Shown here piece by piece: positions 1 through 29,794 of a DNA stretch of 41,706 nt. A program made the translations under genes and the position numbers. The notes beneath the pieces were generated by a model that did not search any database, was not told the DNA's origin, and saw nothing but the letters and a program-made list of their open reading frames with translations. The DNA lies in the IMG/VR virus record IMGVR_UViG_3300043419_002673, positions 1-41,706 of that record. One strand, written 5' to 3'. Positions within the stretch are counted from its first letter, which is position 1, and each line of letters opens with the position of its first letter. This DNA is from a virus.

Positions 1-175
1 AAGAGAAGGTTAGAGTTACCGACTCAAATGGTGAGGTGTGATGGTTGTCAACCAAAAACTTGGTTACACGAATAACCTCTTCGTCCGATTTTGCAGCTGC
101 CTTTGACTCATCAAGTGTAGAAACCCACGCAGAGTTTGCTACGCTTCTTAGATCTCCAGTGATAATAAGATTCAT
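1..175 (-). CDS. thyX: FAD-dependent thymidylate synthase ThyX (N-terminal part, runs off the window)
   Basis: Only the first 58 residues are in the window. They read MNLIITGDLRSVANSAW and contain HHTSPFE at residues 45-51, followed by a V-T-L-T-F strand; ThyX proteins carry a similar H-(T/C)-SPFEH-V-x-x-TF block in the FAD/dUMP-binding fold. The enzyme makes dTMP from dUMP using methylene-tetrahydrofolate and FADH2. Its ATG overlaps the stop of the upstream M16 peptidase gene (TAATG), so the two are probably translationally coupled. Many large phages carry ThyX; here it fits with the two deaminase genes later in the window that could feed dUMP. The ThyX signature RHRxxSxNxxSxR would lie beyond the edge and could not be checked. 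Confidence 0.85.
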   Translation of the reverse strand, partial: MNLIITGDLRSVANSAWVSTLDESKAAAKSDEEVIRVTKFLVDNHHTSPFESVTLTFS

Positions 176-1374
176 TATTCAACCTTCTTTGCTACAGCCA
201 TAACATTCTTTCCTACAAAAATCTTCTTTGCTGCTGCCATTACATCTTCTGCTGTTACTTTTGAAAGCTTACGATTTGTTGCTGCAATACTTGGAATCTT
301 CTTCTTCATGAAGTAGTGGTCTACACACTTAAGAGCAATTCCTTCTGCTGACTGCCAGCTTCTATAGATTCCTGTACGCATCTTATTCTTCGAACGCTGG
401 ACTTCTTCCTCTGTTGGAAGGGTAGTCATAGCCTTCTCAATCTCTGCAAGGATAATGCTCTTTGCCTGCTCCATATTCTGTGGTCTAGTTGAGAAGTGGA
501 TTGAGAAAGATCCAGATGTACGATCTGTTGAATTACCGGCACCGATTCCATACACAAGGTTTGCCTTCTCTCTTACCTCTTGGAAGAGTCTGCTATCCAT
601 GCCATCACCAAGAATATTTCCTAGGACTGCTGCTGCATATACCTCCTTGGAGCCATACTTGAATGAAGGCCAAGCCCAAATAACGTGAGCTTGCTCTAGA
701 TCGTTTCTTGGAACCTCTACAGTAAGAGTTTTCTTTACCTTTGTCTTTTCTGGTGTAAGAAGTAAGTTTGCCTGTCCATCCTGCTCACCAAAGTATTTGG
801 TGATAACTGCCTCTGTCTCTGACTGCTTCATTGGGGAACAGACAGAGATAAGCATATTCTCCTTCTTATAGAAGGTGGAGAAGAAGTGCTTTAGGTGATC
901 TAGCTGGATTGCATTAATTGACTCTTCTGTTCCGATTACAGGACGAGAAAGATAGTTTGAGTAGAACTTACTTGCAAATTCCTTTCCAAGTGCTCGATTA
1001 ACAGAGTCGTTTCCAGATGCAAGCTCTTCTAGGATTACCTGCTTCTCCTTGTCAAACTCAGACTCTGGAAAGGCTGGATTTGTCACCATATCATGCAGAA
1101 TCTCTACTCCAGCCTCAAAGTGATCTACAGGCAGCGTGATGAAATATACAACCTCTTCATGTGAGGTATAGGCGTTTGAATCACCGCCATAGAAAGCAAT
1201 CTGGCGAGAAAGCTCAAAAGAATCGCGAGTAGGAGTGCCCTTGAAAAGAAAGTGCTCAAGGAAATGAGCAGTACCACTTTCAAATCCATTTGGAATCTCC
1301 AGCGCAGAACCTGCTTGAAAGGCCACGGCAATTGTTGCAAGTTTTGATGGATTCTTGTTGATAATAAACTTCAT
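175..1374 (-). CDS. M16-family zinc metallopeptidase
   Basis: Peptidase family M16 (processing-peptidase/insulinase type). The inverted zinc motif HFLEH is at residues 37-41, and the third ligand is most likely E117 in VILEEL, about 76 residues later as in the family. The C-terminal half has the family substrate-binding Arg/Tyr region (REKANLVYGIGAG). The length of 399 aa matches single-unit bacterial M16 proteins, so both the active and the inactive domain are present. There is no signal peptide, so it should act in the cytoplasm or virion. It overlaps thyX by one base. The substrate is unknown; peptide degradation or processing of a phage protein are both possible. The family call is strong, the role is not. 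Confidence 0.9.
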   Translation of the reverse strand: MKFIINKNPSKLATIAVAFQAGSALEIPNGFESGTAHFLEHFLFKGTPTRDSFELSRQIAFYGGDSNAYTSHEEVVYFITLPVDHFEAGVEILHDMVTNPAFPESEFDKEKQVILEELASGNDSVNRALGKEFASKFYSNYLSRPVIGTEESINAIQLDHLKHFFSTFYKKENMLISVCSPMKQSETEAVITKYFGEQDGQANLLLTPEKTKVKKTLTVEVPRNDLEQAHVIWAWPSFKYGSKEVYAAAVLGNILGDGMDSRLFQEVREKANLVYGIGAGNSTDRTSGSFSIHFSTRPQNMEQAKSIILAEIEKAMTTLPTEEEVQRSKNKMRTGIYRSWQSAEGIALKCVDHYFMKKKIPSIAATNRKLSKVTAEDVMAAAKKIFVGKNVMAVAKKVE

Positions 1375-2185: not shown

Positions 2186-3328
2186 TCACTTCTTCTTCTG
2201 CTCGATCACAACCTTCTTGCCATATGGGACTTGATTTAGGTAGCCCTCATTCTGCTTACATGCTGCCCACAACATTCTGCACTTTGGCTTTGGTGGGAAT
2301 GGTGCAGCGCAATCTGTAAAGATGATTAGCCCATCGTACTTCATATCGTCAGCAAGCTTAATTGGTTCATGGAAGCTTGTTCCGCCCCTACCTGCTATAT
2401 TAAGCTTCTTTACCTTCTTCTCGAATGGCTTAGGCTCAGTCTTTAGCTCATGATCGAACTGAACGAGATCAACCTTGACATGAGCAATCATACCGTTAAT
2501 TTCCTGAAGAAAGTATTCTAGTTCCTGATCTGATACGGAACCTGACGTATCAATTGCAACAAGGATCTTGCTCGTGTAGTCTCGCTTAGAACCAGGATCT
2601 TTATAACCAAATCGACGGTTTGGCCTCATGCGAGTGCTCTTTCGTCCCATCATAATGATTTGGTTGATAAAGTATCTGACTTCGCGCTTCCAGTTAACTA
2701 CAGGCTTGTTGGCAGCAATAATCTGCTGTGCGAGATTGCCAGAGATATCTCCCCAACCCTTAGCCTCTTGCGACTTAATAGCCTGTTCTGCGATATTACG
2801 AACCTTCTCCTTGATAATATCGTCGTCGCACTCACCCCACATTTCGTGGTCGTCTACCAGCTCTCCCTTGCCTTCAAGGGCACCCTCTCCCTTCTCTTCC
2901 TCCTCCTTCTTAAGCTTCTCGTAGTACCACTCAGAGGACTCATTATCTGGAAGCTGGAAGTTCTTAGGATAAAGGGCACCCTCTGGCAGACCCTCGATAT
3001 GACAGTTGATTGCCATATCTGCGGCGTAATTGTAGCCCTTCATGTTGTAATTGAAGTATTGATTACGAGAGATATGGTGAAGAAGAACGTGAAGAGCCTC
3101 ATGCTTAAGAACAGCGCGAAGCTGAGTATAGGTCATCTTCTTTACGAAATCGGGATTATAGTAAAGAGCGAGGTCAACACGGCGAGTAGTGCCGACTGCC
3201 ATTGTTGGCAAGTCCTTTCGCTCGATCTTATTCAAATAGAGGAATACTGTACCGTAAAGAGGATAGAGAAGAACAAGGGTGGAGATTGCGGATTCAAGGG
3301 AATCTCGCGCAGCACGATCATACGACAT
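2186..3328 (-). CDS. Metallopeptidase-like/VWA domain protein (DUF2201 type), partner of MoxR ATPase
   Basis: 380 aa. The N-terminal domain carries HEALH at residues 76-80 within a helix (LKHEALHVLLHH), the layout of the 'putative metallopeptidase' domain of VWA-like predicted peptidases. An acidic, low-complexity linker (residues 136-175) follows. The C-terminal von Willebrand A domain has a MIDAS motif DTSGS at 260-264 and a later GGTSF. Proteins of this type are encoded next to MoxR AAA+ ATPases, as here, and the pair is thought to act as a chaperone or metal-insertion machine. A terminator-like hairpin lies between the two genes, so the VWA product may be made at a lower level than the ATPase. 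Confidence 0.85.
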   Translation of the reverse strand: MSYDRAARDSLESAISTLVLLYPLYGTVFLYLNKIERKDLPTMAVGTTRRVDLALYYNPDFVKKMTYTQLRAVLKHEALHVLLHHISRNQYFNYNMKGYNYAADMAINCHIEGLPEGALYPKNFQLPDNESSEWYYEKLKKEEEEKGEGALEGKGELVDDHEMWGECDDDIIKEKVRNIAEQAIKSQEAKGWGDISGNLAQQIIAANKPVVNWKREVRYFINQIIMMGRKSTRMRPNRRFGYKDPGSKRDYTSKILVAIDTSGSVSDQELEYFLQEINGMIAHVKVDLVQFDHELKTEPKPFEKKVKKLNIAGRGGTSFHEPIKLADDMKYDGLIIFTDCAAPFPPKPKCRMLWAACKQNEGYLNQVPYGKKVVIEQKKK

Positions 3329-3410: not shown

Positions 3411-4478
3411 TTAAGCAGTCTTATTGTCGATGCCGTACACCTTGCGGAGAACCTCGCAGAAATCTGCATCGGACTGCCAAGGCATTACGATCTTCTTCGT
3501 CTTGGGATTGGAGAGGAGAGAAGTCCAGAGATTAGAGGCTACATCCTTAGGAACCATGCCAAAGAACTTCTTAAGAGCCTCAGTCTGCTTCTCCTTCATC
3601 TTGGCGGCAGAGCGGTTAGCAACCTCATCGGTGATGGAGTTAGCAAGAGCCGCGATTACCTCAATATCAGAGCAAGCTGCTTCGATCTTGGGAACCATCT
3701 CCTCAAACTTATCGAGAACATCGGAAGCCTTAAGCTGAGAGAATTCATTAGTCATGAACTTCTGGAACATGACTGCAACCTCTCGACCTACCCAACCCTT
3801 AGCAATCTGAGTAACCATACCATCGGTATCATCAGTGAGATTCATAGCGAGGATGGTGTCAGAAAGGGACTGCCAAGAACGACGAGAAGGATAGACTCGA
3901 CCGGACTCCATATTGCCAACCGGAGGATCAAGAAGGTTCTGATTACGAGCAACAAACTCGACAACAGCAGGGTGAAGCTTGGCTGCGCGTGCCCAATCAA
4001 TCCATTCCTTTGGAGTAGGATCGAAATCGATCATAAACCAACGGTCAAGCAGAGCGGGATCCATCTCGACAACATCGTAGTCATCATCGGCGTTAACTGC
4101 CGCTACAACACGCCAACCATCGGGAAGCTTCTCACCATCGAGGCGACGATCAAGACAGATCTCAAAGACTGCCTGAAGAACGTCCTTGCTGGCGCGGTTA
4201 AGCTCGTCAAAGAAGAGAATACCCTGGCTCTGAGGATCGCGAGGCCACCAGTAAGGCTTAAGGAAGGTCGTGATTCCCTTTACTGCATCAAGGTGAGGCA
4301 GACCCTTAATATCACCGACCTCACACTGAGAAAGACGAACATCGAAGAATTCGATGTTCTGCTCCAGAGCAGCCTGCTTGATTACAGAGGACTTACCGAC
4401 ACCATGCTTTGCGCGAAGCATGATGGACTTATTGAGGGGCATTTCGCGGAGAACACGCTTAGTAGAAGTGACGTTCAT
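3411..4478 (-). CDS. MoxR-family AAA+ ATPase
   Basis: 355 aa. Walker A AKHGVGKS is at residues 23-30, Walker B ILFFDEL around 87-93 (D91, E92), a sensor-1 Asn in AAVNADDD, and an arginine-finger-like DPALLDRW. The overall order matches MoxR ATPases, which remodel partner proteins with VWA domains. The VWA partner lies directly downstream. A promoter (4596-4624) and a leader hairpin precede the gene, leaving a leader of about 110 nt. The ribosome site is CTGGAG about 11 nt before the ATG, a little far. The C-terminal part (residues 230-355) is a helical lid-like region without recognised motifs. The family call is firm; the phage role is unknown. Confidence 0.88.
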   Translation of the reverse strand: MNVTSTKRVLREMPLNKSIMLRAKHGVGKSSVIKQAALEQNIEFFDVRLSQCEVGDIKGLPHLDAVKGITTFLKPYWWPRDPQSQGILFFDELNRASKDVLQAVFEICLDRRLDGEKLPDGWRVVAAVNADDDYDVVEMDPALLDRWFMIDFDPTPKEWIDWARAAKLHPAVVEFVARNQNLLDPPVGNMESGRVYPSRRSWQSLSDTILAMNLTDDTDGMVTQIAKGWVGREVAVMFQKFMTNEFSQLKASDVLDKFEEMVPKIEAACSDIEVIAALANSITDEVANRSAAKMKEKQTEALKKFFGMVPKDVASNLWTSLLSNPKTKKIVMPWQSDADFCEVLRKVYGIDNKTA

Positions 4479-5151: not shown

Positions 5152-5445
5152 TTATTCCATTTTTTGAATTCCCAAACCAACCACTTGTATCTTGTAGGGA
5201 GTTGTTTCAACTACCTCCGGTACATCTTGATCTTCCCTTCTTACTACTAGAGACTGCTTTTTTGGCTTAGCTGGAAGAATTTCTGTTGGAGTAATTGCCT
5301 GACTTTCTGAATCTTTTGCTCCAATTACTGCCTTTAGCTCTTCCAACTGAGCTTGTATTTTTTCTAGCTCTTTTGTTAGGTGACTAACTCCATTTTTTAA
5401 GTTAGAAACCATTTTAATAGTGGTGTCGAGTTTTTCGTTCATCAT
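5152..5445 (-). CDS. Small coiled-coil protein downstream of the IMPDH-family gene
   Basis: 97 aa, not recognised. Residues 5-45 are a heptad-rich helix (LTKELEKIQAQLEELKAVI), followed by a Pro/Lys linker and a short beta-like C-terminal end. The start overlaps the stop of the IMPDH-family gene by 4 nt, indicating translational coupling. There is no signal or membrane segment. A scaffold or oligomerisation partner is conceivable but nothing in the sequence proves it. Confidence 0.7.
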   Translation of the reverse strand: MMNEKLDTTIKMVSNLKNGVSHLTKELEKIQAQLEELKAVIGAKDSESQAITPTEILPAKPKKQSLVVRREDQDVPEVVETTPYKIQVVGLGIQKME

Positions 5446-6512
5446 TCCTTCCTTGTTCCAAAAGCATGAGACTCAAGAAGTCCAGCGTGAGTAATTTTGA
5501 TAAACTTAGCATTTTGTCTCAAATCCTGAAGAGTTGTTGCATTAGCATAAGTCATACCAGATCTCAGACCTCCAGAAAACTCCTCTAGAATTGGAGTTAC
5601 CGAACCCTTTGCTGGTATCCTAGTGGAAACTCCTTCGGCACAAGTTAGGGGCTTTAAACCACCTCGATGGTCTTTTTGTACCTCGGCAGAAGCCATGCCT
5701 CGATAGGTCTTGTAAGTTATCCCGGCATTTTCGTCACGGATTAGATCGCCGGGTGTCTCATCGGTAGCAGCTAGGATTCTTCCGCACATTACGGCATCAG
5801 CTCCAGCGGCAATTGCCTTAACCATATCAGAAGGATAGCGAATTCCTCCATCAGCAATAATAGCAACGTCTCTCAGTTGAACTGCTGATTTTTTTACGCT
5901 ATAACATTCCATGATAGAATGAAGAAGTGGAACTCCAAATGCAGTTTGAATTCTCGTAGAACAAATGGCTCCTGATCCAATGCCAACTCTTACTGCGTCA
6001 ACCATTCCAGTGTTTCCAATGTAATAAAACCCTTCTCCAGTGGCTACATTTCCAGCAATAATTCTTATTCCTGGAGCAATATCCTTTATTTTACTAAGAC
6101 CATCCTTCATATAAGAGGAGTGGCCGTTAGCAACATCAACTAGTACAGCATCTAGCGGAACTGATGACCATAGCTCCTTAAATCTTGCTACCTCATCCCT
6201 TCCAAGACCAACCGCAGCAACCTTTGGAATCTCTCTTTCCTCTGACTCTTCTGCCCTCAGGATGGATCGAATATTGTCAATCTGCTCTGAGACTGACATA
6301 AAGCGATGAATTACTCCCATGCCGCCTGCAAGCCCTACTGCCATTGCCATTCTGGATTCTGTTACCGTATCCATTGGTGATGAAATGATTGGAAGAGTAA
6401 GTCGTACTCCTGCAATGTCAGTATCGAGCTTTGGAATGGATCTGGATCTAACCTCTGTATAGGTTGGAACCAAAAGAACATCATCAAAAGCTAGGGCTTC
6501 ATTTATAGTCAT
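5442..6512 (-). CDS. IMP dehydrogenase/GMP reductase family enzyme lacking CBS domains
   Basis: 356 aa TIM barrel. It has the N-terminal AFDDVLLVP motif, SSPMDTVTE at 44-52, DVANGH at 126-131, and the catalytic loop GSGAICSTR with nucleophile C184. GGIRYPSD and AGADAVMCG give the phosphate-binding site, and the C-terminal GGLRSGMTY and ITHAGLLESH match IMPDH better than GMP reductase. The CBS pair normally inserted near residue 95 is absent, and the flap after YRGMAS is short and lacks the usual Arg-Tyr of IMPDH. IMPDH oxidises IMP to XMP; GMP reductase runs GMP to IMP. The gene start overlaps the upstream zincin gene by 14 nt, with GGAG 8 nt before the ATG. The family is certain, the direction of the reaction is open. 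Confidence 0.85.
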   Translation of the reverse strand: MTINEALAFDDVLLVPTYTEVRSRSIPKLDTDIAGVRLTLPIISSPMDTVTESRMAMAVGLAGGMGVIHRFMSVSEQIDNIRSILRAEESEEREIPKVAAVGLGRDEVARFKELWSSVPLDAVLVDVANGHSSYMKDGLSKIKDIAPGIRIIAGNVATGEGFYYIGNTGMVDAVRVGIGSGAICSTRIQTAFGVPLLHSIMECYSVKKSAVQLRDVAIIADGGIRYPSDMVKAIAAGADAVMCGRILAATDETPGDLIRDENAGITYKTYRGMASAEVQKDHRGGLKPLTCAEGVSTRIPAKGSVTPILEEFSGGLRSGMTYANATTLQDLRQNAKFIKITHAGLLESHAFGTRKE

Positions 6513-7044
6513 TTAAATACTCCAGAGAAAATTGAATTTCAGTTGCAAATTGTTCTGATGTTTTTGAGATATAGTTTTCTAGGCAATATGAAGAATACCA
6601 ATGATGAGCGACTTCATGGCTCAATATTTGAAAATTATAAAAGTTAGAGTGTTGGGTTACGACAATTGAATTTACCCCATATTCATCTGACCTTGGATCA
6701 AAATATCCCCAAATCTCCTCTTGAAAATAAAACTCTTTTGGAAATCTTTTTTCCTTGTTCATTTGAAGTTCTGAGATTTCATATATCTCAAGAAATTCAT
6801 TTGGCTTACAGATTCTCGCCCCAGGAACAAGATTTTTTATTCCTTCAATGGAAGCAATAGAAGAGGTCATTATTGCTTTTTCTATTAGTTCTTCTGAATA
6901 TGCTGTTTTTTTCTTATGATAAAATTTATATTCAACCTTATCAAAGAGAGTTACCTGCACTATGCCGGTGGTTTTCTTTTCTAAAAATGATAAGCCATCC
7001 ATTGGAGAATAGGCAAGAGCACTTAGTGCAAATAATAAATACAT
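6499..7044 (-). CDS. Secreted zincin-like metallopeptidase (paralogue 1)
   Basis: 181 aa. It has a short hydrophobic start MYLLFALSALA with a plausible cleavage site before YSP. The motif SHEVAHHWY holds H143, E144 and H147, and SEQFA supplies a candidate third ligand at E164, an HExxH...E arrangement. The protein is clearly related to the next gene upstream (7046-7594): both have an ALAY signal end, WGY(F/Y)DPR, HE(V/M)AH(H/Y)WY, a C-L-E after the motif and S-E-(Q/E)-FA. This indicates a tandem duplication. Export to the periplasm is inferred from the signal. I do not recognise a named family. Confidence 0.75.
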   Translation of the reverse strand: MYLLFALSALAYSPMDGLSFLEKKTTGIVQVTLFDKVEYKFYHKKKTAYSEELIEKAIMTSSIASIEGIKNLVPGARICKPNEFLEIYEISELQMNKEKRFPKEFYFQEEIWGYFDPRSDEYGVNSIVVTQHSNFYNFQILSHEVAHHWYSSYCLENYISKTSEQFATEIQFSLEYLNDYK

Positions 7045-7045
7045 T

Positions 7046-7594
7046 TTATTCCCAGATTAATTTGTTTTGAATTGAAACTGCAAATTCTTCTGAATTTAAT
7101 TTTGTAAATCTTTCTAAGCAAAAAGTCTGATACCAGTAGTGGGCCATTTCATGTGCAATTATTCTATAATTTGCATTTCCGGAATGTGGAGAAATTACAA
7201 TTGCATCAAGTCCTGGCTCATTTGGTCTTGGGTCATAATATCCCCAAAGTGAGTTATATCCTCTTCCGGAATTTCCGATAAATTCCTCTGGAAACCTAGC
7301 AGGATTATTTAATTCTTTTTCAGAAATCTCAAAAATCTCTACTAGTTCTCCAGAGGAACATCTTTTGTGTGCCGCTCCCATGGACTGAATTTCGCGAATA
7401 GATACTAGTGTCGAAGAGTAAATTGCTTTATAAATCATCTCATCTGGATAGCTATCTAGATTCTGCCTATTGATTGAGAATTTTAATTTTATGTCATCAA
7501 TAAAGGTATATTCTTCAATCTCACTTTTTATTGGAAATTTTATTCCTTCTACTGGCTTATAGGCTAGCGCCATTCCGACCATAAGGAGAAGCAT
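7046..7594 (-). CDS. Secreted zincin-like metallopeptidase (paralogue 2)
   Basis: 182 aa. It begins with the short signal-like MLLLMVGMALA, then YKPVEG. The zinc motif AHEMAHYWY gives H148, E149, H152; E169/E170 in NSEEFA may be the third ligand. It pairs with the neighbouring paralogue at 6499-7044. An AGGAG site lies 6 nt before the ATG, which supports this start even though the signal is short and lacks a basic n-region. Two exported peptidases side by side in a phage are unusual; envelope protein digestion, superinfection control or a lysis role are possible. Confidence 0.75.
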   Translation of the reverse strand: MLLLMVGMALAYKPVEGIKFPIKSEIEEYTFIDDIKLKFSINRQNLDSYPDEMIYKAIYSSTLVSIREIQSMGAAHKRCSSGELVEIFEISEKELNNPARFPEEFIGNSGRGYNSLWGYYDPRPNEPGLDAIVISPHSGNANYRIIAHEMAHYWYQTFCLERFTKLNSEEFAVSIQNKLIWE

Positions 7595-7597
7595 ATT

Positions 7598-7777
7598 TTA
7601 CTCCTGATCTTCTCGGGTTCCTCTATGATCTCTCTGGGGAGATTCGTGGGATTCAGATCTAATCTCTACAACTAGATTGGAGTTGCACTGAATCCAACCA
7701 ATCTCTTCTTTAGTTAGACCGTCGTGATACCATACTGTCTTAGTTTCTTTGTTTGTTACTCGAATGTTGTATCTCAT
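7598..7777 (-). CDS. Small hypothetical protein (59 aa)
   Basis: Starts MRYNIRVTNKETKTVWYHDG and ends with a charged tail (HRGTREDQE). An ATGA overlap with the stop of the upstream helical-repeat gene and an AGGAG site 5-6 nt before the ATG support it. The N-terminal half looks like a beta hairpin, followed by LTKEEIGWIQ. It has no recognised family. It sits between the helical-repeat gene and the exported zincin pair in the same transcription unit. Confidence 0.75.
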   Translation of the reverse strand: MRYNIRVTNKETKTVWYHDGLTKEEIGWIQCNSNLVVEIRSESHESPQRDHRGTREDQE

Positions 7778-8502
7778 GGTTCTCCTAAATTACTCATTCT
7801 TTTTTTAAGAACAGACTGAATGAAGCCTTCTTTTAAATGCCGGCTTCCTAGCATTAACGGAATTTTTGATTTATCAATTTTTCTAATAACAGAATAAAAA
7901 ACCCATTTTGATCTATCATTCATCATTAGGCTTAAGGCCGAATGATTGTGAGGTAGGGCCTGACATATTGACGCTCTAACCTTTGCGGATTTGTCTTTCG
8001 CCATTTGCTCGGCACAGGCTAGAAGCCCCAATCTATTGTACGCCTCGATGCGAACTTTATCAGAGGGATCTTTTAAAAATCTATCTACCTCGTTTATTGG
8101 GCAGATCTTTAAATACTCTGCTTTTGCCGAAGAATCATGGTCTTTAAAGATATCCGGATCAATATTGTAATCGTATAATCCAGAGGAAATAATATTTGAC
8201 TTATATGGGTAAAGTGGATTTTTTTGATCTGCCGTCAAAATATGGATTGAGAGACTGGGATGAAGATTTATGGTAGAAAAGACAAGCGCTCTATATGCAA
8301 AGTAAGAGCCACCCTTTGAATTAATAAATTTGCTAAATGATTTATCTAGCATAAGAACCTCCCCCTCTTCTTTTGTAAGGGGGAGATCATTCCAAAATGA
8401 CCACCCTATTCCAACTGGATATCTAGAGCCAGTCTTTGTGCCATTTTTTATAAATCTAGATATCTTTTCTTTCAGATTCTTTGATTTCTCTTCGGTCTTC
8501 AT
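7774..8502 (-). CDS. Helical-repeat (HEAT-like) protein, family with 37731-38570
   Basis: 242 aa. The C-terminal half is made of helical pairs. DKVRIEAYNRLG and AKVRASICQALP are HEAT-like repeats, followed by KIPLMLGSRHLK. The protein at 37731-38570 has DKVKLASYKKLG, AVIRRYAISILS and HIPMMLGSNHLK in the same order, so the two are paralogues. The N-terminal 130 residues are divergent. There are no catalytic motifs; it probably binds protein or nucleic acid. It overlaps the DHH gene by 47 nt, and AGGGA precedes the ATG. Function unknown. Confidence 0.75.
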   Translation of the reverse strand: MKTEEKSKNLKEKISRFIKNGTKTGSRYPVGIGWSFWNDLPLTKEEGEVLMLDKSFSKFINSKGGSYFAYRALVFSTINLHPSLSIHILTADQKNPLYPYKSNIISSGLYDYNIDPDIFKDHDSSAKAEYLKICPINEVDRFLKDPSDKVRIEAYNRLGLLACAEQMAKDKSAKVRASICQALPHNHSALSLMMNDRSKWVFYSVIRKIDKSKIPLMLGSRHLKEGFIQSVLKKRMSNLGEP

Positions 8503-9337: not shown

Positions 9338-10411
9338 TTAAAAAGTAAAACCTTCTATGATTTCAGAAGAAGAAGAGAAGTATATCTTTTCTAGCTCCGG
9401 ACACTCTACTGCCAATCTAGCAGTAATAAACTCCTTCATTAAGGAGAGAGAGTCGAATGATAGAAGTTCATTTTTGTAAAATAACTTAAAAACTTTAACT
9501 TCCTCTAGGATATCGCATTTAGAAGTAATTAGATAATTTCCTCCTGCCGTATTAAGGGCAAATATTAGCTTATCAAGATTGAGATAATTTACCTTACGAC
9601 GACGACCTGTTGTTGTTCCATATTCTTGGCCTGCATCTGCAATACTCAAAAGCTCTGGATTATCAAGCAGTGTCTCTGGAAAGTCCGGATCTTCACCAGA
9701 TCTTGTATCATACATTTTAGCGATAGCATAAATATTTCTTATTTTCTTTGGCGAAAAACCAAGTGAGGAGGCGGCATATGGAAGAGTTTCGCTACTAGTA
9801 ACATAAGGATAATTCCCACAGTTAATATCAAGAAAGAAACCCTGAGCACCTTCGCAAAGAATGTGACCAAAGAGCCTTCCATCAAATAGGTGGCTCTTCC
9901 AAAAAGAATCTAGTGCTGCCACCTCTTTAAATCTTATTCCCGTTCTGGCATACTTATCGGCATAAGCTGGAGCTATTCCTTTAGAGGTAGTTCCAAGTTT
10001 CTTAGCTAAATCCTTCTTGTCGGCCTCAATATGCTCTCCGGTGACAATATGAGTAGCTGGTGAAATCTTAATTAGAGAAGGATCAAATCCTGATTCTCTC
10101 AGATAGTTGAACTCTTCTTTTAGAAGCTCAAGATTTACAACACAACCTGGCCCAATAAGAGAGGTGATTCCATGAAAAACTCCAGCTGGAACCATATGAG
10201 TCTTATATTTTTTGCCATTAACAAAAATAGTATGACCTGCATTTTGCCCGCCACCCCATCGAGCAACAAAGTTATAATGCTTGTCGTTTGTTCCAAAAAT
10301 CTTTGCAGCTCTAGATGGCTGAGAAGAGAGAAAATTAGAAACCTTTCCTTTTGATTCGTCACCGTAGCTTGCACCATATACAATATCAACAGAAATAACT
10401 TCGTGGCTCAT
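9338..10411 (-). CDS. purA: Adenylosuccinate synthetase (PurA/PurZ family, short form)
   Basis: 357 aa against about 430 in E. coli. The motif GASYGDESKGK holds the catalytic Asp at 18, and QNAGHT has His60. TSKGIAPAYADK, EGAQGFFLD and the GTP-binding-side TTGRRRKVNYLNL follow in family order. PurA joins IMP and aspartate with GTP. In PurZ of diaminopurine phages the Asp is replaced by Ser; here Asp is kept, which favours true PurA chemistry, though the short length resembles archaeal and phage forms. The usual GDEGKGK Gly is Ser20. A GGAGGGC ribosome site is 3-4 nt before the ATG. Together with the IMPDH-family gene it places two IMP-branch enzymes in the same region. Confidence 0.88.
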   Translation of the reverse strand: MSHEVISVDIVYGASYGDESKGKVSNFLSSQPSRAAKIFGTNDKHYNFVARWGGGQNAGHTIFVNGKKYKTHMVPAGVFHGITSLIGPGCVVNLELLKEEFNYLRESGFDPSLIKISPATHIVTGEHIEADKKDLAKKLGTTSKGIAPAYADKYARTGIRFKEVAALDSFWKSHLFDGRLFGHILCEGAQGFFLDINCGNYPYVTSSETLPYAASSLGFSPKKIRNIYAIAKMYDTRSGEDPDFPETLLDNPELLSIADAGQEYGTTTGRRRKVNYLNLDKLIFALNTAGGNYLITSKCDILEEVKVFKLFYKNELLSFDSLSLMKEFITARLAVECPELEKIYFSSSSEIIEGFTF

Positions 10412-13674: not shown

Positions 13675-15294
13675 TTATTCTGCCATTAGATCGGAAAGAT
13701 CTTGGTAAACACAAACTTCTGTTGTCAGGAGAGTTCCGGCAGCTGAGACTGCATTCTCTACGCCTTTTCTGACTACCTTGACAGGATCGATAATTCCACG
13801 ATCCATCATATCCTCTACAAACTCTCCACGGAGCGCATCAAAGCCAACAAACCCTCCTGTTGATAGAATTCTCTCCTGTGGTCCGTGATGATCAAATCCA
13901 CCATTCTTCATAATCTGAAGGAATGGTTCCCTTAGAGCATTCTTTAGAATATTGAGTCCAGCAAGCTCTTCTGGAAGAAGATCTGATCCTTTTTTGGATT
14001 GAATAAAATCTCCAAGAACTCTTGATGCCTGAAGAAGAGCGGAACCTCCACCTGGAACAATGCCCATTTCAATAGCAGCACGAACAGCATTGAGAGAATC
14101 TTCTACTCTGTCCTTACGCTCTCTCATTTCTCCTTCGGTAGAGCCTCCGACACGGAATACTGCCGCTCCACCAGCCAGCTTAGAAAGTCTGTCCTTAAGA
14201 GAAGATTTTTGATGATCAAATAGAGTCTCATCCACCATCTGAGACTTAATCATTCTAACTCTCATCTCAACAGATTCTTTTCCTCCAGCTCCATCAACAA
14301 CAAGGGTGGTATTTCTGGTGCAAAGGATTCTTCTTGCCATACCAAAATCTGAAAGCTCTGCGTCACGAAGTGCTCTTCCATTAGAATTGTCAAAGACCTT
14401 GCCACCAACTACGGCAGCAATATCTTCCAGCATATCTCTTCTGACATCACCAAAGCCTGGTGCCTTAATAGCACAACAGAGTAGGTTTGCTTTCTGTCTG
14501 TTGAGAACTAGAGTGGCAAGAGCCTCTCCTTCTACATCACGAGCAATAATGAAAAGTGGTCTTCCGGCCCCATGAGTCTTTTGAAGAATCTCTAGAAACT
14601 CTGTAGAAGAAGAAATCTTATCATCATAAAGCACAACATAAGCATTTTCAAATTCGCAAGAAAGTTTCTCTGCATTAGTTATAAATGCAGGAGAGAGCCA
14701 GCCCTTACCAATCTGCAAACCTTCAGTATAGGTTACCTGAGTTTGACCTCCAGTTGATTCCTCAAGGGAAACAACTCCATCCTCTCCAACATTAGAAACA
14801 ACTTCTCCAATCATAGAGCCAAGCTCAGAATCATTATTGGTAGAAATGGTAGCTACATGCTTCAGAGTTTCTTCTGAGTCAATCTTGCGAGCCAAAGAAG
14901 AGAGAAAGGTGGTAACTTGAGAAAGTCCAAGATCAAGACCTCTCTTAAGAAGTACTGGATTGTTTCCAGCTGCAATTAGCTTTAGACCCTCATTAAAGAT
15001 AGACTGTGAAAGAACTGTAGCGGTAGTTGTTCCATCACCAGCCATAGAGTTTGTAGCAGATGCAGCAGACTTAATTAGAGAAGCTCCCATATTTTGGAGA
15101 GGGTCTTTTAGCTCAATGGCTCTTGCGACGGAAACTCCATCTTTTGTAATAACTGGTGCTCCATAGCCTCTTTCAAGTGCGGCGTGACGACCACGGGGAC
15201 CAAGAGTAACCTTTACTGCATCGGCTACAATATTAACGCCTTTTTGAATTTCTGCTCTTGCTTCAGAACCAAACTTAACTTCTTTTGCTGACAT
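13675..15294 (-). CDS. groEL: Phage-encoded GroEL-type chaperonin
   Basis: 539 aa, full length for GroEL (about 548). ATP-site blocks are TLGPRGRHA, KDGVSVA and GDGTTTATVL in the equatorial domain. The apical domain runs LSPAFITNAEK through KAPGFGDVRRDMLEDIA, and MGIVPGGGSALL leads back to the equatorial domain. The family's Gly-Gly-Met tail is missing; it ends VYQDLSDLMAE. No groES is in the window. GroEL folds proteins inside a double-ring cage; several jumbo phages (for example EL and OBP of Pseudomonas) encode their own, some acting without GroES. No promoter is visible in the 12 bp before the gene, so it is probably read from the methyltransferase or upstream. Confidence 0.95.
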   Translation of the reverse strand: MSAKEVKFGSEARAEIQKGVNIVADAVKVTLGPRGRHAALERGYGAPVITKDGVSVARAIELKDPLQNMGASLIKSAASATNSMAGDGTTTATVLSQSIFNEGLKLIAAGNNPVLLKRGLDLGLSQVTTFLSSLARKIDSEETLKHVATISTNNDSELGSMIGEVVSNVGEDGVVSLEESTGGQTQVTYTEGLQIGKGWLSPAFITNAEKLSCEFENAYVVLYDDKISSSTEFLEILQKTHGAGRPLFIIARDVEGEALATLVLNRQKANLLCCAIKAPGFGDVRRDMLEDIAAVVGGKVFDNSNGRALRDAELSDFGMARRILCTRNTTLVVDGAGGKESVEMRVRMIKSQMVDETLFDHQKSSLKDRLSKLAGGAAVFRVGGSTEGEMRERKDRVEDSLNAVRAAIEMGIVPGGGSALLQASRVLGDFIQSKKGSDLLPEELAGLNILKNALREPFLQIMKNGGFDHHGPQERILSTGGFVGFDALRGEFVEDMMDRGIIDPVKVVRKGVENAVSAAGTLLTTEVCVYQDLSDLMAE

Positions 15295-22670: not shown

Positions 22671-23600
22671 TCATGTAGTAGATTTTACTAAGGAAAGATA
22701 ATTTAATAAAGCAAGATCCTTCATTTTTGCTTCGATCATTACATCGATCTCTAATCCATAGGTCAAAATCTCCTTTTTAATATAGTCAGAGTGAGCCTGT
22801 GGCTTAATTTTAGGATCTCCGCGCTCTTCAGAAAGAGATTCGGAATAATGAATTACCGGTCTAATTCCTGTCGGCCAAGTAGAAGCCGCCAAATTCATAG
22901 CCTCTTCTTGGGTAAGCCCTCCATCACAAAATAGGTGATGGTGTTGATCATGAACGATTGGTATTCCGGTATGAGGGTAAAGATCTTCTACCAACTCTTT
23001 AGTGGAATAAAGTGAGGCTTTATCATCATTTTCTACTGTCAGTCTTGACTTAACAGAATCTGGAAGTCTAGAGAAATTCTTAATAAAGCGAGCAACTGCT
23101 ACTTCTTTCTCTCCGTAGGCTCCACCAAGATGGATATTGATCTTTGCATCATGAGTTCTTGGTAGACCTAAGAAATCAAAAACCTCTCCGTGAATTCTAA
23201 GATCGGTAATTGTATTCTGCACTACAGACTCTGAATCGGAACAAAGCTTATTGAATGGGCCGGGATGAGAGGTGATTCTCATGCCATGCTGTCTGGCAAA
23301 ATCTCCGGCAGTTTTAAGTGCTAGCGAAATCTCATCAAAATCCTTGAGGGCAGAGATTTGATATTCCGATGCCCAAGGAAAAAGATTGGATGATAGTCTA
23401 AAGAAGAAGATTCCATTTTCCAAATTTGTTTTTAGAATCGGTAGCAAGTCTCTGCAATTTTGCAGGGCCAACTCTGAGGCATAATCTACACCTTTTTGAT
23501 CGAAAGTCTTTCGAATCATTGTTCGATTAGTGGATGGTGCAGACTTTCCCATCTTCTGCTCTAGAAAACTGGAAATACAAGCGTAACCGTAGCGAACCAT
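22671..23600 (-). CDS. uvdE: UV-damage endonuclease UvdE (UVDE)
   Basis: 309 aa TIM-barrel protein. Begins MVRYGYACISSFL, has FFRLSSNLFPWAS, RITSHPGPFN, INIHLGGAYGEK, LTVENDDKA, PIVHDQHHH and VIHYSES, the metal-ligand His/Glu/Asp set of UVDE in family order. The enzyme nicks DNA 5' of pyrimidine dimers using metal ions. The own promoter (23620-23648) gives a 13-nt leader with AGGAG before the ATG. Together with the downstream glycosylase it gives the phage a repair module. The call is firm. Confidence 0.92.
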   Translation of the reverse strand: MVRYGYACISSFLEQKMGKSAPSTNRTMIRKTFDQKGVDYASELALQNCRDLLPILKTNLENGIFFFRLSSNLFPWASEYQISALKDFDEISLALKTAGDFARQHGMRITSHPGPFNKLCSDSESVVQNTITDLRIHGEVFDFLGLPRTHDAKINIHLGGAYGEKEVAVARFIKNFSRLPDSVKSRLTVENDDKASLYSTKELVEDLYPHTGIPIVHDQHHHLFCDGGLTQEEAMNLAASTWPTGIRPVIHYSESLSEERGDPKIKPQAHSDYIKKEILTYGLEIDVMIEAKMKDLALLNYLSLVKSTT

Positions 23601-26384: not shown

Positions 26385-26507
26385 TCACTCTGCTGCAGAG
26401 CCGCTATCAACGACGGAGCTGTCACTTGAACTGTCGCCCTTGTCTGCTGTGCAAGCTGCGAGTGTTGCTACTGCTGCTACGAGAATCATTGTTACTACTT
26501 TTTTCAT
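26385..26507 (-). CDS. Mini-lipoprotein (40 aa)
   Basis: Starts MKKVVTMILVAAVATLAACT: a basic n-region, hydrophobic core and lipobox LAAC with Cys19. The mature part is 22 residues, rich in Ser/Asp/Ala, and has no folding motif. AGGAG 7 nt before the ATG and an ATGA overlap with the upstream DUF2061-like gene support it. Such mini-lipoproteins occur in phages as outer spanins or superinfection-exclusion lipoproteins. It implies a Gram-negative (or lipoprotein-processing) host. Confidence 0.75.
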   Translation of the reverse strand: MKKVVTMILVAAVATLAACTADKGDSSSDSSVVDSGSAAE

Positions 26508-26828: not shown

Positions 26829-27098
26829 TTAGTGAGCTGCTGTGGTTGAGCCGGAAGTGCTGCTGCTTGACTGAGTTACTGGTACTGTGGTTACAGTCTC
26901 TGTAGTTCCAGCGGTGCTCTCAGTGGTAGAGGTTACTGCTGAAGTGGTTGCTGCTGCATCGGCACTTACTGTTGCGTCAGTAGTTACTGCAGTAGTCTCT
27001 GTTGATGCTGGTGTGGTTGCAGCCTCAGTTGCGGCTGGAGCCTCTACCTTCTCAGTGGTTGAGCAAGCAAGTAGTGCGGTTAGTGCTAAGGTTAACAT
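26829..27098 (-). CDS. Ala/Thr/Ser-rich lipoprotein (89 aa)
   Basis: Starts MLTLALTALLACSTTEKV: signal peptide with lipobox LLAC at Cys12. The mature region is almost only Ala, Thr, Ser, Val and Glu, a flexible surface-spacer type. AGGAG precedes the ATG. A strong promoter with hairpin (27127-27186) drives it. Low complexity makes family calls impossible. It could be a surface-exposed lipoprotein affecting phage adsorption, or a spanin-like element. Confidence 0.75.
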   Translation of the reverse strand: MLTLALTALLACSTTEKVEAPAATEAATTPASTETTAVTTDATVSADAAATTSAVTSTTESTAGTTETVTTVPVTQSSSSTSGSTTAAH

Positions 27099-28282: not shown

Positions 28283-29794
28283 TTAAGAAATGTCTTTTAA
28301 AATTTTTACAAAATCTTCAAAACTTTGAATTGGAGTGTTTGATACTTTTTTTAATAAAAGTTCAACGGTTCTTTCTTCAATTTTTTTAGATTTTGAAAAA
28401 TACTTTATATAATCATGAATTATGTTTTTATTTGGTGTTGCCATATTTAAATCATATGACAGCATCATTTGCTTTGTATTTTCTGGGTTTTCCGGAAGAA
28501 GAATTCCCCTTGCCATTAGAATTTGTGAAATTCTTCTAATCTGAATTCCCTTCTTTTTTGCCGGATCTACTACCTTAGTCCAGGTACCAAGCTCTCTGGA
28601 GAAAAGATCTATATTAAAGTTCCCTGATTCATCTTTTGATTTGTTAAGAATTCTTTCCAATCTCTCTGGGCCTAAATTATAAGAAACATCTACAAAAGAG
28701 TCATACATTCCTTTTGTTAGCTCTTCATTTGGATCTATTCCAGATTTTAATATAGAAACCCTAACTAAATCTTTTTTCTTTATTTTTGCAGCTTCCTCTT
28801 CAGAAATTCCATCAGTCCATCTAACCCTTTCTGTTGGAGAAATTTCAATAATTCCTGTATCAAGCTCATCTGGCTGGAGCTGGTGACCGTATCCAATCAT
28901 CCAATGTCTTTTTGATTCTGCCTCGTTTTTATCTCTTGGCCACTTAAAGCTAGAGTTATCATTATAAATTTTGCTAGAAAATCCTTCTCCAGTCATAATG
29001 AATTCAACTCCGGCTGGAGAGATTGACATTTCTCCGGCTCTTCCAACTTCAGAAGGGTCATAACCAGAAGATAATTTTTTGATTAATTTTTCAATTATCT
29101 TTTTTAAATCTGGATAAGCAACTTCAGCACGATGAGTATGCTTAATAAGCTCAGTCTGTTTTAACTGAAGTGTTCCATCTTCAAAATTTAAATTTGGATT
29201 ATATTCTTTTATAAACTCTAATATTATATCTTTTTTATTTTCTATTGGAACATCAGGATACATCGCCTGCATCATATTATCTACGGGAGTATTTAATTCA
29301 AATACGATCTTTTTTTCCTCTAGATTTGGCGATTCTTCTAGAGCAAAATCAGCCATAATTTCTTTTAACTTTCCAGATTCTAAAGATTGATTTGCAGAAT
29401 AAACTGCCCCACCAAATAGACTTAAGCTCAAAAATGCATTTAGCAGAAGAGATTTAATATTATTCTTTATTCTAGAAGCTTCTTTTTTTAGACCCAAAAC
29501 ATCTAAAGCAGATTTTGTAATCTTGAGTTTAGATATTCTTTTCTTTAGAGCCTCATCTCTTTCGCCGTAATCCAGATTTCTTCTAAAAAATTCCGGAACC
29601 TTACCTTCTCCACCACGAGGAAATAGGTGGTTGTCCTCTGCTGAATTTTTATGCTTAAAGTATTCTATATCTCTAAGTCTTTTTTTGGCAGCAGCTCTAG
29701 AGGTATAGGTCCCCATGTTTTTTCCTTTTTCAGAGTAAACACGGAATTTTTTATCACCAATTTGCCTTATATAGGCTGTTTTTTGAATATTCAT
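28283..29794 (-). CDS. Virion-type lysozyme (GH24) with N-terminal phage domains
   Basis: 503 aa. Residues 8-50 hold a basic motif (KKFRVYSEKGKNMGTY ... RLRDIEYFKH) like the small 'KTR/RVYSEKG' domain common in phage proteins. A LGLKKEASRI stretch at 100-109 and a hydrophobic segment at 113-135 follow. The C-terminal third is a T4-lysozyme-like GH24 domain: E270 in TGEGF, D279 in IYND, and HWMIGYGH at 297-304. In GH24 the residue before IGYGH is usually the catalytic Thr (WTIGYGH); here it is Met299. Length and layout suggest a virion-associated peptidoglycan hydrolase rather than a free endolysin. It sits behind a terminator and an AT-rich promoter-like element. Confidence 0.82.
   Translation of the reverse strand: MNIQKTAYIRQIGDKKFRVYSEKGKNMGTYTSRAAAKKRLRDIEYFKHKNSAEDNHLFPRGGEGKVPEFFRRNLDYGERDEALKKRISKLKITKSALDVLGLKKEASRIKNNIKSLLLNAFLSLSLFGGAVYSANQSLESGKLKEIMADFALEESPNLEEKKIVFELNTPVDNMMQAMYPDVPIENKKDIILEFIKEYNPNLNFEDGTLQLKQTELIKHTHRAEVAYPDLKKIIEKLIKKLSSGYDPSEVGRAGEMSISPAGVEFIMTGEGFSSKIYNDNSSFKWPRDKNEAESKRHWMIGYGHQLQPDELDTGIIEISPTERVRWTDGISEEEAAKIKKKDLVRVSILKSGIDPNEELTKGMYDSFVDVSYNLGPERLERILNKSKDESGNFNIDLFSRELGTWTKVVDPAKKKGIQIRRISQILMARGILLPENPENTKQMMLSYDLNMATPNKNIIHDYIKYFSKSKKIEERTVELLLKKVSNTPIQSFEDFVKILKDIS

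Follow-up and report, generated by a model that had tools for sequence, protein, structure and literature searches.

Two adjacent genes in a viral DNA of 41,706 nucleotides (IMG/VR record IMGVR_UViG_3300043419_002673; the whole of this stretch is called the window here) encode members of a zincin family that is very probably exported. The zincin gene keeps its position and belongs to the syntenic core of a whole clade of uncultured phages; it is not an oddity of the window phage. Its products may well be proteases that act on envelope proteins of the host.

The zincin genes, their active site and predicted fold

The original prediction, made from the DNA of the window, had placed tandem duplicated genes for exported zincins of an unrecognised family at 6499-7594. 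That the genes are paralogues was confirmed: copies A and B (Table 1) are about 40% (39-40%) identical from end to end (E 4e-46), and the predicted coordinates and motifs, WGY(Y/F)DPR, HE(M/V)AHxWY and SE(E/Q)FA in both copies, were correct. The ATG of copy B is located one base past the stop codon of copy A and has no alternative, and the 3' end of copy B overlaps the start of the IMP dehydrogenase-like (IMPDH) gene. Copy A has an AGGAG Shine-Dalgarno sequence six bases 5' of its ATG, and two codons ahead of this ATG the frame is closed by a stop. The stop codon of the 59-aa ORF is positioned between this Shine-Dalgarno sequence and the start codon of copy A, and counterparts of the 59-aa protein were found in the same position in seven of the eight other phage loci that were read.

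Table 1. Coordinates of the zincin genes and of other features of the window
Feature	Position	Strand	Remarks
M16-type peptidase	175..1374	-	Last gene of the conserved block
DUF2201 protein	2186..3328	-	N-terminal putative metallopeptidase (HEALH) and VWA domain; presumed partner of the AAA+ ATPase
MoxR-type AAA+ ATPase (AAA_5)	3411..4478	-	Syntenic with the zincin
IMP dehydrogenase/GMP reductase	5442..6512	-	Syntenic in most related phages
Zincin copy B (P0001), 181 aa	6499..7044	-	Signal MYLLFALSALA/Y; HEVAH; SEQFA
Zincin copy A (P0002), 182 aa	7046..7594	-	Signal MLLLMVGMALA/Y; Cys79; HEMAH 148-152; Cys159; Glu169 within SEEFA
Small conserved protein, 59 aa	7598..7777	-	No signal; directly upstream of copy A
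HEAT-repeat-like protein	7774..8502	-	Upstream part of the conserved block
Adenylosuccinate synthetase-like (AdSS) protein	9338..10411	-	Matches PHROG 1211 (2-aminooxy adenylosuccinate synthetase); near the IMPDH-like gene
Third short HExxH protein, 227 aa	10715..11398	-	HIFSHELGHLSGF, then EPFAESEAERA; no Pfam or PHROGs match
Phage-encoded GroEL	13675..15294	-	PHROG 5725, E 7e-146; upstream of the conserved block
UV-damage endonuclease UvdE	22671..23600	-	Pfam E 1.6e-58
Lipoprotein-like small ORF	26385..26507	-	MKKVVTMILVAAVATLAAC
Lipoprotein-like small ORF	26829..27098	-	MLTLALTALLAC; short basic-free signal resembling those of the zincins
Lysozyme-like protein	28283..29794

With the third short HExxH protein, the M16-type peptidase, the DUF2201 protein and the two zincins, five predicted metallopeptidases are encoded within 11.4 kb.

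A pattern search starting from a single sequence found no relatives, and alignments were used instead; when three members of the family were compared by tblastn with 50,697 phage records, no match was obtained. On the rarity of exported metallopeptidases in phages, which had been stated originally, the one result that bears is this lack of matches to the family. Alignment-based searches detected the tandem pair in four more IMG/VR contigs (L003-L006) and lone divergent genes in two others (L014, L015). In an alignment of 39 members (28 from phages and 11 from bacteria) HExxH with the catalytic Glu, as expected of a gluzincin, was found throughout. His148, Glu149, His152, Cys159 and Glu169 were invariant, and Cys79 was present in 38 of the 39. 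Glu169, the presumed third zinc ligand, lies 17 residues past the second His in copy A and starts a predicted helix (168-178). Exactly two cysteines follow the signal in 36/39 members, as would be expected of a disulfide in an exported protein.

AlphaFold predicted a zincin-type fold from an alignment of 13 sequences (pLDDT 85.5, pTM 0.84), which were required for a confident model, as an alignment of two sequences gave a pLDDT of 35. In the model a strand is followed by the active-site helix (139-157) and then by the glutamate helix, and we call the fold gluzincin-like. The invariance of HExxH and of the downstream Glu, together with this prediction, upholds the original assignment of the proteins to the zincins. 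They also proved to belong to no recognised family, given that no significant match was obtained in Pfam, NCBIfam, PHROGs, PADLOC or the PDB sequences (six members were scanned against NCBIfam and PHROGs, copy A against PADLOC). The best values among these six members, E 0.026 in NCBIfam and E 0.0069 in PHROGs, were not significant, nor was a weak likeness in the HExxH region to PHROG 87, a phage metallo-protease (best E 0.007).

The best Foldseek matches and the weak profile matches were with gluzincins of families M1 and M9 and centre on the core of these enzymes, HExxH with a Glu ligand on the helix that follows. The top matches of Foldseek in the PDB were clostridial collagenase H (M9) and aminopeptidases N (M1), with a TM of about 0.4 and a best E of 0.007, and a profile search of the PDB reached E 0.44 at best; membership of M1 or M9 was not supported by these values. 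Moreover, M1 and M9 enzymes are composed of multiple domains and several hundred residues long, whereas the window zincins have about 170 residues and no sequence match above threshold. Like the zincins, the SprT-like proteins or minigluzincins (Wss1/Spartan) are small single-domain HExxH enzymes, and they gave weak Pfam matches: SprT-like PF10263 was matched below threshold in 5/39 members (best E 0.0039; 12.9 bits against a gathering cut-off of 25.6) and IrrE/M78 PF06114 in three of the 39 (best E 0.066). However, SprT-like enzymes act inside the cell, whereas the window zincins begin with a signal and have a pair of cysteines as well as an invariant Glu past the HExxH. Among predicted viral proteins the best Foldseek match had an E of 2e-4, with SprT-like and IrrE-like phage proteins lower in the list.

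Signals and predicted export

The signals of both window copies consist of about 11 (11-12) hydrophobic residues ending in ALA before Tyr12. They contain no Lys or Arg, as had been pointed out originally, whereas most phage homologues do have basic residues. Such unusually short, basic-free signals count against export. The AGGAG sequence and the upstream in-frame stop of copy A imply that its basic-free signal is real and not an annotation error. Signals of the same type are present in the sister phages of the window and in the nearest bacterial homologues (MFLLALVSLATAQ, MIMLALVASVYAY). Among the long ORFs of the bacterial family basic-free signals were found in 6/118 (some of the six being probably spurious) as against 0/84 in E. 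coli, a comparison that is only weakly positive for a higher frequency in that family.

More distant relatives carry ordinary signals (MKIMLSAALFLNAVSFA, MNTKTGKITASIAACLLLLSSVSFA) or lipoboxes, the latter convincing in five members (L045, L053, L055, L056 and L058). The most hydrophobic 10 residues form the N-terminus in 37/39 members, most of which have a basic n-region, and a sequence signal for Sec export, with a cleavage site or a lipobox, was recognised across the family. The ordinary signals and lipoboxes of the relatives and the nearly constant presence of exactly two cysteines make Sec export of the family well supported as a prediction. The export that was originally proposed for the two copies is strengthened in the same way, on the grounds of sequence.

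Position in phages and bacteria and divergence of the two copies

The position of the gene was examined in 30 phage loci that had been fetched with the DUF2201 protein and not with the zincin. The family profile detected a zincin in 29 of them (E 3e-11 to 8e-76); the sole exception, L050, begins inside the AAA gene. Five of the 30 were contigs already known by their zincin and several were near-duplicates, and all of the 24 independent contigs contained the gene. This result, together with the recurrence of the tandem pair in four more contigs, excludes chance. Relatives are present in some 30 other uncultured phage sequences. The recurring order is AdSS, DHH phosphoesterase, HEAT-like protein, zincin, (IMPDH), AAA+ ATPase, DUF2201 and M16 peptidase, the IMPDH gene being moved or missing in a few loci. 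In L078 (4507-7870) two separate IMPDH-matching ORFs follow the zincin and may be parts of one gene that was split or interrupted. In other phages a protein of about 300 aa and one of about 60 aa, like that of the window, are usually encoded between HEAT and zincin. The former, which is uncharacterised (L053:5488-6432; counterparts in 7/8 loci read), is missing in the subclade of the window, including the window itself, and this subclade has a second zincin instead. As contigs of up to 332 kb belong to the clade, the window probably represents part of a larger genome.

A single scan covering 84,980 species of bacteria and archaea yielded five loci, all in metagenome-assembled genomes (MAGs) filed as 'uncultured proteobacterium'. 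Around one such MAG the gene was found in 3/22 genomes of the family, 6/71 of the class and 7/379 sampled in the phylum, and is therefore rare and patchy in bacteria. The bacterial relatives come from this one phylum of MAGs, other phyla having been reached solely by one scan that required near-exact short peptides, and the near homologues lie on MAG contigs with bacterial flanking genes. A host was not adopted from these relatives; the GC content is about 39% in the window versus 57-72% in the relatives.

The tandem arrangement is confined to the subclade of the window, and both copies are intact in three genomes. NG86 estimates of dN/dS between L003 and L005 were 0.13 for A and 0.16 for B, rough values as dS is high (0.76 and 1.25). 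As judged from these sequences, both copies are under purifying selection. They evolve faster than most neighbouring genes, the identity between the window and L003 being 57% for A and 45% for B, compared with 62% for HEAT, 82% for IMPDH and 90% for DHH. In the tree the B copies form a clade (support 100/98) and the A copies cluster with the bacterial L016-L018 (support 89/92). Acquisition of the A copies from bacteria after the duplication was considered, but an AU test in which the six phage copies were held together did not reject a phage-only clade (p 0.15). The original prediction had offered selection for diversity or for dosage as the reason for the pair. With about 40% identity between the copies and purifying selection on each, divergent roles are the likelier explanation and dosage fits less well.

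Possible functions of the zincins

The reading that we consider moderately probable is that both copies are exported gluzincin-type proteases that cut envelope proteins of the host. They would be small single-domain enzymes with HExxH on one helix and the putative third zinc ligand, Glu169, on the next. Both would be made in the infected cell from the gene block that also contains the nucleotide-metabolism and MoxR-VWA genes, and exported via Sec, signal peptidase I cutting after ALA. A disulfide between Cys79 and Cys159 would hold the mature enzyme of about 170 residues. In the envelope it would cleave proteins, most likely those of the host, and thereby remodel the infected cell, for instance by removal of a receptor or adhesin or by weakening ahead of lysis. 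After the duplication in the subclade of the window the copies would have diverged, probably in substrate. The location of the gene among nucleotide-metabolism genes, apart from the lysozyme-like gene, counts against this reading.

It is possible, though rather doubtful, that the exported protease instead matures exported or virion-attached proteins of the phage itself, as one module with the MoxR AAA+ ATPase and DUF2201. In every sufficiently long phage locus MoxR and DUF2201 were found less than 4 kb from the zincin, and a MoxR-VWA pair is located near the zincin in 5/7 bacterial genomes. Four of these (G001, G002, G003 and G034) have one zincin within a few kb of a MoxR-type AAA_5 gene and of a gene for a CobT-like VWA protein whose N-terminal part contains HExxH, even though clear VWA genes of this kind number only one or two per genome. 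In the fifth, G211, the nearby pair is of the phage type (AAA and DUF2201); its contig (L084), on which the AAA, DUF2201 and zincin genes are of the phage type, may itself derive from a phage. No pair was seen near the zincin in G053 or in G055, whose contig is merely 4.6 kb, nor, in the stretch read, around the second zincin copies (L025, L020 and L042) that some of these seven genomes carry. The bacterial linkage suggests that the zincin is functionally related to the pair. In addition, Iyer et al. (2021; PMC7824862) proposed that in group 2.2 jumbo phages a MoxR protein paired with a metallopeptidase-vWA protein acts in virion assembly and processing, and the pair 2-4 kb downstream of the window zincins is of the same kind; in the passages of that paper that were found an exported zincin is not mentioned.

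Several findings argue against such a module. MoxR and DUF2201 lack a signal and are expected in the cytoplasm, in contrast to the zincin with its predicted export. Cultured phages that bear the pair lacked the zincin where examined, and none was seen close to the DUF2201 gene in Bacillus phage G, Vibrio phage phiKT1024, Moorella phage MTATph1 or LR756500. The bacterial CobT-like VWA proteins could be tied to DUF2201 by the VWA motif but not as a common family, and, as the whole phage block is conserved, proximity alone is weak evidence. VMAP-type ternary conflict systems likewise combine MoxR and vWA proteins, with VMAP (Kaur et al., 2020; PMC7159879); neither the phage proteins nor the pair of L016 had a match in PADLOC. 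A wider proposal, which we put forward tentatively, is that the exported gluzincin and the MoxR/VWA-metallopeptidase pair are one system with two VWA subfamilies, exchanged between large phages and a bacterial phylum with large genomes, that reshapes the host envelope.

A helper of lysis or release, which as a protease or lipoprotein of the envelope would weaken the outer membrane or the proteins that tie it to the wall, would agree with the predicted periplasmic or lipoprotein nature of the relatives. It is unlikely, as the gene is not linked to the lysozyme-like gene but adjoins nucleotide-metabolism genes, and close homologues occur on MAG contigs among bacterial genes. A zincin of the SprT-like or IrrE-like type that stays in the cytoplasm, its N-terminus being hydrophobic but no signal, to which the sub-threshold Pfam matches could point, is very improbable, since none of these matches attains the family cut-off and the relatives have ordinary signals, lipoboxes and nearly always exactly two cysteines.

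Exported metallopeptidases of phages were not found in literature searches, and the phage metallopeptidases in the papers found work inside the cell or in the maturation of virions. A secreted zincin with a cysteine pair that is core across a clade of large uncultured phages would point to an as yet poorly understood step of infection that takes place outside the cytoplasm. The family supplies small single-domain candidates for biochemistry, and its conserved neighbourhood offers a connection in function, open to testing, with the MoxR-VWA chaperone pairs, the substrates of which are often unknown. As a copy is present at the same place in some 30 other uncultured phage sequences, the zincin is probably a standard tool of these phages for acting on the outer layers of the host cell.
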